Below, piece by piece: positions 17,293 through 19,619 of a DNA stretch of 64,000 bases. The stretch's first letter is position 1. Every line of letters begins with the position of its first letter. The notes beneath the pieces were generated by a model. That model worked only from the letters and a program-made list of their open reading frames with translations. It made no database searches and was not told where the DNA came from. This DNA comes from Candidatus Pelagibacter sp. IMCC9063. GTDB taxonomy: Bacteria; Pseudomonadota; Alphaproteobacteria; Pelagibacterales; Pelagibacteraceae. The DNA is taken from positions 234,001-298,000 of the forward strand of contig NC_015380.1 of assembly GCF_000195085.1 (NCBI RefSeq), given 5' to 3'. Position numbers and translations under genes: made by a program.

Positions 17293-18069
17293 ATGTCCTT
17301 AGAATCAACCAGATACGCTAAAAAAATTGCCAGTGCTTTCAACAATGGCACCTTGATTGCTCCGCTTCCTGTTAAATTTACAAAAAAATCCAGTGAAGCA
17401 AATAAATTTAGGACAGAGTGTGAAAAATTAATTACATCTCCAATTATAGGTTTTAAAGCTGGTGGTACCGGAAAGCCTATGCTTAAAAAACTTGGAGAGA
17501 AAGAGCCCTTCTACGCAGCAATTTATAAAAAAAATTTATTAAAAAGCAATGGATCTGTAAAAATTAACAAATACACTTTGGGTATTGAACTAGAAGTTTT
17601 TTACCAAGTGAAGAAAAGTTTTTTTTCAAACTCAAAAAAAATTACTGAAAAAAATGTATCTTCTGTTGTAAGTCATATGGGTCCTTGTATTGAGGTGGTA
17701 GGCTATAGACAAAAAAAGAAAGGATTAACTTATTTGGGAGATTTAATTAGTGACTTTGGTGCAAATGTTAAATTTATCATAGGTAGAAAACAAAAATTTA
17801 AAAAACTAAAATTTAATAACTTAGCTACTAGTCTTTATAATAAAAAAAGTGGCCAGGTAGCAAATGGAAATACGAAGGCTGTTTACGATAGCCCATTAAA
17901 ATCATTAATTTGGCTTTTAAACAAAATTAAAAAAAATAAAATCGATTTAAAGAAAGATTTTTTAGTTTTTACCGGGTCCACAGTGGGGGTTGTTCCCATT
18001 CAAAAAACAGGATTGTTTAAGGGAGAGATTAAATCTCTAGGTTCGGTGAAAACTAAAATTAAAAATTAA
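17293..18069 (+). CDS. MhpD-like hydratase/decarboxylase (fumarylacetoacetase fold)
   Basis: A 258-residue protein resembling 2-keto-4-pentenoate hydratase/4-oxalocrotonate decarboxylase. Visible similarities are GFKAGGTGKPM and EPFYAAIYKK near the start, GIELEVFYQV, IEVVGYR with the metal-ligand Glu, and the C-terminal SPLKSLIWLLNKIK with VFTGSTVGVVP. Family members act on 2-hydroxy-dienoate intermediates of meta-cleavage pathways, but no such pathway genes are nearby. The metal ligands of the E-x-E type are partly visible. Its stop codon overlaps that of the convergent lysine-rich gene. Confidence 0.7.
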   Translation: MSLESTRYAKKIASAFNNGTLIAPLPVKFTKKSSEANKFRTECEKLITSPIIGFKAGGTGKPMLKKLGEKEPFYAAIYKKNLLKSNGSVKINKYTLGIELEVFYQVKKSFFSNSKKITEKNVSSVVSHMGPCIEVVGYRQKKKGLTYLGDLISDFGANVKFIIGRKQKFKKLKFNNLATSLYNKKSGQVANGNTKAVYDSPLKSLIWLLNKIKKNKIDLKKDFLVFTGSTVGVVPIQKTGLFKGEIKSLGSVKTKIKN

Positions 18070-19619
18070 CTAGCTTTTTTTAACTGGCGTTCTTTTTCAA
18101 ACATTCTAGCCAATCTATCAATCATATAATCTGATGCTTCAAAAACATTTTTGGGCTTAAATAACTTAGTTTCAGCAAGATCTGTCTTATCTTCTAAGGT
18201 AATTTTTTTTCTTAATCTTTCTTTGGCATTTTCTCCTTCAATAAATAGTAAAATTAAATATTCATCTTCATTCACAGCATCTTCATTTTTTATAAAACAT
18301 TCTCCATTTTCAGCGATATGATCTACAAATCGCAAAGGGGTTCTTCTTAAAGTCAAATATCTTTTGTTAATTTGAAAAACAATTGACTTCATATTTCTTG
18401 AATAACGCTCTAATTTGCTAACAACTTTTTGTTTTAATAGTTCCTCTGCTTTTTGAGCTTCGAGTATTTTTCTTGCCTCTTCTCTAGCCTCTTTTCTAAC
18501 TTCAGCTTCTTTAAGTTTTTCTTCTCTCTTCCTTGCCTTAATTACCTGAAATTGCTCTCTAATCTTAGCCAACCTAGGATCTAAAGCTTTTAAGGAATCT
18601 CTTAAAACTTGAATTTTGTTTTTTTCTTCTCTTTTAATTTCTTTTAACTCTTCTTTGAGAAGGCGTTCTTTTAATTTTTCTTCTTTAATCCTATCTCTAA
18701 TAGCAATCTTTTCTTCTAATATTTTTTGTTTTTCTTTGTCACGAAGCTCCTTGAGCTTTAATTTTTGAGCGGCTAGCTTAATTTTTTCTTTTTCTTTTCT
18801 ATCTTTAGTTCGTAAAATTTCTTTTTCTCTTTTTTCTCTAGCTTTTATTTTTTGTAATTCTTTTTTTTCTTTAATTTTCCTCTTTTTTTCTAAAAAAATA
18901 TTTCTTATTTTTATTTTTTTCTCTAAGATCTTTTGTTTCTCTTGTTCTTTTCTTTCTTTGATTTTGGCAATTCCTCGTTCTTTTTTTTTCTTAGCTTTTC
19001 TTTTTTCCAAATAATCTTCGATCTCATTAACTTTTTTGGCAACAAAATCTTTCAAGCCAAAAAGGCCAAAAATCGATAACTTAATTTTTTCTACAATAGG
19101 AAGGAGTTTTTTTTGTAATTTACTTGTAGATGATAGTTTATTCTTTTTAGGAAGAGTTTTCTTCTTTGTTTTAGTTTTTACTGATTTAGTATTCTTTTTA
19201 GAACGAATTGGTTTTGTTTTTTTAAGTTTAGAAACTTTAATCTTCTTCTTTTTAGGAAGAGTTTTCTTCTTTGTTTTAGTTTTTACTGATTTAGTATTCT
19301 TTTTAGAACGAATTGGTTTTGTTTTTTTTAGTTTAGAAACTTTAATCTTCTTCTTTTTAGGAAGAGTTTTCTTCTTTGTTTTAGTTTTTACTGATTTAGT
19401 ATTCTTTTTAGAACGAATTGGTTTTGTTTTTTTTAGTTTAGAAACTTTAATCTTCTTCTTTTTAGGAAGAGTTTTCTTCTTTGTTTTAGTTTTTACTGAT
19501 TTAGTATTCTTTTTAGAACGAATTGGTTTTGTTTTTTTAAGTTTAGAAACTTTAATCTTCTTCTTTTTAGGAAGAGTTTTCTTCTTTGTTTTAGTTTTGG
19601 ATTTTAGTTTTGTTTTCAC
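18066..19619 (-). CDS. Lysine-rich protein with N-terminal tandem repeats and long coiled coil
   Basis: A 517-residue, extremely basic protein of unknown function. Residues about 10-160 are identical 35-residue repeats (KTKTKKKTLPKKKK, IKVSKLKKTKPI, RSKKNTKSV). About residues 205-410 form a continuous charged coiled coil rich in KEREK-type heptads. The last 110 residues form a distinct non-repetitive domain (KRYLTLRRTPLRFVDHIAENGE; EYLILLFIEGENAKERL; ASDYMIDRLARMFEKERQL). Repeats of the PKKKK/TKK type recall histone H1-like or AlgP-like tails that bind nucleic acid, by analogy only. It starts with GTG, overlapping the upstream TGA (GTGA), so it is coupled to the DsbA-like gene. Confidence 0.75.
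   Translation of the reverse strand: MKTKLKSKTKTKKKTLPKKKKIKVSKLKKTKPIRSKKNTKSVKTKTKKKTLPKKKKIKVSKLKKTKPIRSKKNTKSVKTKTKKKTLPKKKKIKVSKLKKTKPIRSKKNTKSVKTKTKKKTLPKKKKIKVSKLKKTKPIRSKKNTKSVKTKTKKKTLPKKNKLSSTSKLQKKLLPIVEKIKLSIFGLFGLKDFVAKKVNEIEDYLEKRKAKKKKERGIAKIKERKEQEKQKILEKKIKIRNIFLEKKRKIKEKKELQKIKAREKREKEILRTKDRKEKEKIKLAAQKLKLKELRDKEKQKILEEKIAIRDRIKEEKLKERLLKEELKEIKREEKNKIQVLRDSLKALDPRLAKIREQFQVIKARKREEKLKEAEVRKEAREEARKILEAQKAEELLKQKVVSKLERYSRNMKSIVFQINKRYLTLRRTPLRFVDHIAENGECFIKNEDAVNEDEYLILLFIEGENAKERLRKKITLEDKTDLAETKLFKPKNVFEASDYMIDRLARMFEKERQLKKAS
19141..19597. repeat. 105-bp in-frame tandem repeat, about 4.3 copies
   Basis: The motif GGAAGAGTTTTCTTCTTTG recurs at 19150, 19255, 19360, 19465 and 19570, exactly 105 bases apart, so each unit encodes 35 residues. 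The copies are almost identical. The clearest difference is a synonymous Leu codon (CTT in the outer two linkers, CTA in the inner two). Such near-identity indicates recent duplication or ongoing homogenisation, and copy number is likely variable or assembly-sensitive. Confidence 0.95.

Follow-up and report, generated by a model that had tools for sequence, protein, structure and literature searches.

What does a protein with a lysine-rich tail, encoded by near-identical tandem DNA repeats, do in a SAR11 bacterium? Pelagibacteraceae are among the most abundant bacterial groups, and SAR11 genomes are strongly reduced. The gene lies in a 64,000-nucleotide stretch (positions 234001-298000, hereafter the window) of the 1,284,727-bp genome of Candidatus Pelagibacter sp. 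IMCC9063, a member of this family (SAR11) whose assembly is a single contig. The layout of the gene and its immediate surroundings, in window coordinates, is as follows.

18066..19619, minus strand: whole lysine-tailed gene, 517 aa, GTG start (open reading frame list and translation)
19095..19619, minus strand: lysine-rich N-terminal tail, from residue 1 to about residue 172-175
19167..19586, minus strand: four complete 105-bp units, residues 12-151 (TRF and motif spacing)
19143..19166, minus strand: truncated fifth unit, KKKTLPKK only, about the first 8 residues of a unit, residues 152-159
18987..19106, minus strand: hydrophobic/amphipathic segment that follows the tail, approximately residues 172-211
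18420..19004, minus strand: charged helix-like segment without a heptad signal, about residues 206-400
18069..18425, minus strand: conserved alpha-beta5-alpha domain at the C terminus, 119 residues
19616..20233, minus strand: DsbA-like gene, overlapping the start of the lysine-tailed gene by 4 bp (GTGA)
17293..18069, plus strand: convergent neighbour, overlapping the 3' end of the lysine-tailed gene by 4 bp

The first internal methionine of the protein is residue 410; because the next Met codon comes only there, we take the GTG as the natural start. The initial annotation had described translational overlap at GTGA with a DsbA-like gene, and both the 4-bp overlap and the identity of that gene (PF01323 in Pfam, E 8.9e-36) were confirmed. 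It had also counted five 105-bp units. This holds for unit starts, as the KKKTLPKK motif begins at residues 12, 47, 82, 117 and 152 with an exact spacing of 35 residues, but only four units are whole and the fifth is truncated. The complete units are pairwise 0 or 1 base apart, with the arrangement A, B, B, A along the array, and pairwise comparison showed that they differ, as had been proposed, by one synonymous leucine codon (CTT/CTA). The first 172 residues contain 48% lysine and carry a net charge of +86. A 217-aa frame on the opposite strand across the array was rejected as the antisense of the lysine codons.

Near-identity of repeat units may reflect recent turnover, and the initial annotation took it as a hint of copy-number variation; the closest relative allows the turnover to be examined. 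The 105-bp array is known only in the window genome and in that relative, the MAG CP.1 (locus L009, genome G012), in which both contigs expected to carry the gene end inside the array, leaving at least two full units. The first and last units of CP.1 show 0/105 differences, whereas they differ from the four units of the window by 6, 7, 7 and 6 bases. Outside the array, dS between the two genes is about 0.34-0.36, from which two units separated since the split would be expected to have diverged at about 6 synonymous sites; a simple Poisson estimate gives a probability of about 0.014 for no more than one difference and of 0.002 for none, and a half-rate version is weaker (0.18 and 0.044, respectively). 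Since units are alike within each genome and unlike between genomes at a flanking dS of about 0.35, the array looks to have been homogenised or re-expanded since the split from CP.1, which supports recent turnover of the repeat; copy-number variation between strains may accompany it. Other congeners (L010-L013, of which two are truncated by the end of a contig) also carry a lysine-rich tail, but not the 105-bp unit; the array is a local elaboration of a tail type general to the family.

The uniformity of the array had been called unusual for a streamlined genome, a view that only partly survives. TRF was run on 464,000 of the 1,284,727 bases, namely the window and 20 stretches of 20 kb, and returned 45 rows, among which the 105-bp array had the top score (902 at period 210 and 700 at period 105). 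However, the same genome holds a 27-bp array that is perfect over its 10.2 copies (L117:13180-13455, G000:C1:1213180-1213455), so uniform arrays are not unique to the lysine-tailed gene. The 27-bp array encodes DDHKGHKEH repeats and sits in a 386-aa open reading frame (L117:12671-13831, minus strand), presumably a ZnuA-type (zinc-uptake) binding protein with a histidine-rich loop, next to what we take to be an ABC ATPase and a Fur-like open reading frame. Yet another gene of this genome carries a lysine-rich array with an identity of about 79%. A 411-aa open reading frame (L101:6144-7379, at about G000:C1 186144-187379), which we assume to be a secreted FecR-like protein, has a long lysine-rich C-terminal tail with imperfect repeats.

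Is the protein itself, as opposed to its array, widely shared? When the last 116 residues served as a single query sequence, 336 of 397 Pelagibacteraceae genomes gave a match, nearly always with one copy each, and 12 of 14 genera were represented; among the good genomes (completeness of at least 90%, contamination of at most 5%), 136 of 140 matched the C-terminal domain. The 22 loci from a contig search were assigned to Pelagibacteraceae, Pelagibacter or Fonsibacter or were unresolved alphaproteobacterial. An order-level profile search matched 92 of 147 genomes, and among the matches listed all were Pelagibacteraceae; the other family, with 18 genomes listed, gave none, two listed Pelagibacteraceae genomes were likewise without a match, and a further 35 unmatched genomes lay beyond those listed. 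The class-level search matched 4 of 289 genomes, all Pelagibacteraceae. With a broader profile, 2 of 398 genomes matched at the phylum level, both Pelagibacteraceae, and 6 of 385 at the class level, five of them Pelagibacteraceae; the sixth match, in G732 (E 0.0067), was rejected as a weak 58-aa frame with a stop. No credible relative outside Pelagibacteraceae appeared in the order-, class- or phylum-level profile searches. The C-terminal domain went unmatched in some Pelagibacteraceae genomes, among them G007, G008, G011, G020, G028, G126 and G142, through either loss or an assembly gap.

Database searches gave the family no name. In Pfam-A, the whole protein matched no family at E <= 1, in a search where HMMER down-weights low-complexity sequence, and NCBIfam assigned it none; the initial annotation had called for a profile-database search with the C-terminal domain, and the releases of both databases that were searched gave no family. 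Pfam matches of other family members (sets A1 and A4) to PH, YnfS and Csm6 HEPN reached a best E of 0.013, which is chance level, and a single PHROGs row of unknown function (E 0.072) was not assigned. A PDB sequence search with one family profile gave no matches; two sakacin immunity rows in a further PDB profile search (E 0.23-0.37) were rejected as chance. Among viral contigs, 74 stretches fitted the search pattern and none was a relative of the protein. Judged from index entries, the SAR11/Pelagibacter literature holds no description of the gene that we could find. As far as these searches reach, the lysine-tailed gene is a near-universal Pelagibacteraceae gene of a so far undescribed family.

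The part that is most strictly kept is the C-terminal domain, which the initial annotation had rightly set apart: family searches and a confident model both identify it as real and conserved. Across 20 diverse members, 13 of its columns are invariant, and between the window genome and CP.1 its dN is 0.004 and its dS 0.338 (dN/dS near 0.01; L016 was left out because an indel shifts its comparison). Retention in 136 of 140 good genomes of a reduced lineage, together with this low dN/dS, suggests that the orphan gene is probably important to SAR11. The domain is modelled as alpha-beta5-alpha (pLDDT 90.3, pTM 0.83), and Foldseek found no match at E <= 0.001 to the model in PDB or BFVD, and accordingly no significant match pointing to chromatin in either. 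The top VIA-align rows were CapZ (8f8q_G; Z 8.8, rmsd 4.0, 103 aligned, and in a second run Z 8.6, rmsd 3.8, 102 aligned), followed closely by Mediator subunits and one complex I subunit in the second run. A CapZ-type alpha-beta5-alpha arrangement gives the highest-ranked structural alignments of the domain, but sequence identity in the CapZ rows listed is 5-10%, and the best three rows per run (Z 8.4-8.8) lie near background, the best Z stated by the tool for no clear match being 7-8; we therefore draw no function from this likeness.

Between tail and domain, the other members examined also have a hydrophobic/amphipathic segment, with changed sequence, followed by a charged segment of variable length. 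The latter had been read as a long coiled coil, which the data do not support: the periodicity peak sits at 4.42 and not at 3.5 and is equalled in 810 of 1000 shuffles, and seven members tested show no excess of hydrophobic i,i+3 / i,i+4 pairs. The segment is nonetheless long, highly charged and helix-like, and about the last 25 residues before the C-terminal domain are modelled with its first helix as one long helix.

The gene neighbourhood offers little guidance on function. At most clade I loci opened, the lysine-tailed gene follows two genes, presumably DHDPS-like and cyclopropane-fatty-acid-synthase-like, with homologues of the window genes 21107, 22920 and 23417 close by. In clade III, the upstream gene is DsbA-like and overlapping (L010, L012, L020, L022), of the 20242 type (L025, L026, L028), DHDPS-like (L016, L019, L024) or divergent (L027, L029); the remaining clade III loci shown reach a contig end upstream of the gene. 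The other family of the order (f2) has the clade I neighbour gene, and none of its 7 loci opened has a lysine-rich neighbour. The place of the locus thus appears ancient and its upstream partner changing, which makes the DsbA-like gene unlikely as a functional partner of the family; the coupling noted initially is local. In the loci opened, we recognised no neighbouring gene that is conserved and DNA-related in role. In several subclade III genomes lacking a DsbA-like gene at this position, a homologue of window:20242-21039, which we take to be an aldolase-like gene, stands directly upstream of the lysine-tailed gene.

The tail presents the opposite picture to the domain, and it could in principle be neutral AT-rich low-complexity drift with the array a slippage accident, leaving only the C-terminal domain to matter. 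That the 105-bp array is lineage-specific and that another gene of the genome carries a perfect array fit such an account. We compared 22 full-length or near-full-length members of 297-517 aa (the automatic tail finder had clipped the tails of L012 and L024 too early). Their tail sequences diverge freely, but composition is constant: all 22 contain 39-58% lysine, 0-4% aspartate plus glutamate and 2-17% asparagine, where the average over window open reading frames is 10.7% lysine and 5.8% asparagine. The maximum net charge per 60 residues is +32 in the lysine-tailed protein, and none of the other window frames exceeds +17 (65 frames). AT-rich drift would also raise asparagine codons, and their low frequency points instead to selection on charge; a lysine-rich, acid-poor and asparagine-poor composition kept through free sequence change suggests, on compositional grounds, that tail charge is under selection, and we regard neutral drift as quite unlikely. 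The histone-H1-like composition noted initially extends to all 22 members compared. The most interesting point of this locus is its conserved, family-wide orphan with a freely evolving lysine tail, rather than its repeat.

We tentatively favour, at somewhat less than even confidence, a scaffold or tether protein specific to the Pelagibacteraceae lineage, in which a DNA/RNA-binding tail is joined to a C-terminal domain that confers specificity. The disordered lysine-rich tail would make non-specific contact with a polyanion, chromosomal DNA being the likeliest and RNA a possibility, in the manner of H1-like tails; the hydrophobic/amphipathic segment and charged helix would serve as a spacer; and the strictly conserved alpha/beta domain would be the specific part, a head binding itself or a partner. 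The tail may have grown longer in the window strain and in CP.1 by tandem duplication of the 35-residue block, with unequal exchange or slippage keeping the blocks alike. A histone-H1-like nucleic-acid-binding tail would be our best guess for this part of the protein. We speculate further, although this broader scenario is doubtful, that the family was invented at the base of the Pelagibacteraceae as a nucleoid or RNA organiser with a new C-terminal domain, its tail length tuned by lineage through repeat expansion.

RNA, ribosomes and acidic lipids are equally possible ligands of lysine-rich tails, which counts against a reading as a DNA tether in particular. The tail might bind rRNA or mRNA, with the C-terminal domain attaching to the machinery of translation or decay; basic disordered tails are a typical feature of ribosomal and RNA-binding proteins, and the domain bears a weak fold likeness to the ribosome hibernation factor HPF. 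That likeness (Z 4.4-4.6) is, however, at background level and uninformative, and neither Pfam nor NCBIfam gives an RNA-binding domain; we consider a purely ribosome- or RNA-associated role unlikely. It is also rather unlikely that the protein is an anchor at the membrane surface, held to acidic phospholipids by its tail and amphipathic segment and recruiting an envelope partner through its C-terminal domain. The hydrophobic/amphipathic segment behind the tail in the members examined speaks for such an anchor, as does, in one subclade, an adjoining gene that is presumably a cyclopropane-fatty-acyl-phospholipid synthase, but the region scanned has no span-grade hydrophobic stretch (highest 18-residue Eisenberg mean, 0.57) and the neighbouring gene differs between subclades. 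The H1-like protein AlgP localises to polyphosphate granules (PMC9239181), and a comparable granule organiser could be envisaged here. Neither PPK1 (PF02503) nor PPK2 (PF03976) has a match in the complete window genome, which makes a polyphosphate role unlikely, and in 21 genomes searched PPK1 occurs in 5 and PPK2 in none, whereas the lysine-tailed gene is near-universal; we judge this explanation very improbable. PPK1 is patchy among the genomes searched, those with it being G023, G040, G007, G397 and G401.

The gene offers a concrete target for asking how the nucleoid or RNA is organised in the very small SAR11 cells, and the family provides a natural series of tail lengths that can be used to ask whether the length of an H1-like tail matters. 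HU and IHF would share a nucleoid role with the protein if our guess of DNA binding is right, but the lysine-tailed protein has no HU/IHF domain, and three HU/IHF-type genes lie elsewhere in the window genome; hence, the cell would not depend on it as its sole basic nucleoid protein, and a further one is not required.

Among known lysine-rich proteins, Chlamydia Hc2 binds DNA and is described as 165-237 aa long, varying in size with the number of its 36-residue lysine-rich elements (PMC2848022). The present protein resembles Hc2 (HctB), Hc2-like proteins and BpH1 in its long lysine-rich tandem repeats (35 residues here, 36 in Hc2), and Hc2 also in repeat turnover between conserved flanks (PMC2848022). 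It differs in its length of 517 aa, in which the basic tail precedes a charged helix and a folded, conserved domain; unlike the Hc2-like proteins, it is without any Pfam match over its whole length, and its DNA binding is our inference. In Pseudomonas, AlgP and PhaF join an H1-like tail to another domain (PMC9239181), and the protein studied here shares with them this modular tether logic of a tail attached to another region. Their tails, however, are C-terminal KPAA repeats, whereas the tail here is N-terminal and its sequence contains no KPAA, and AlgP differs further in that no polyphosphate kinase was found in the window genome. Because composition and repeat behaviour are most like those of Hc2 and AlgP/PhaF, we tentatively favour a nucleic-acid-binding tail combined with a specificity domain as the design of this SAR11 protein.
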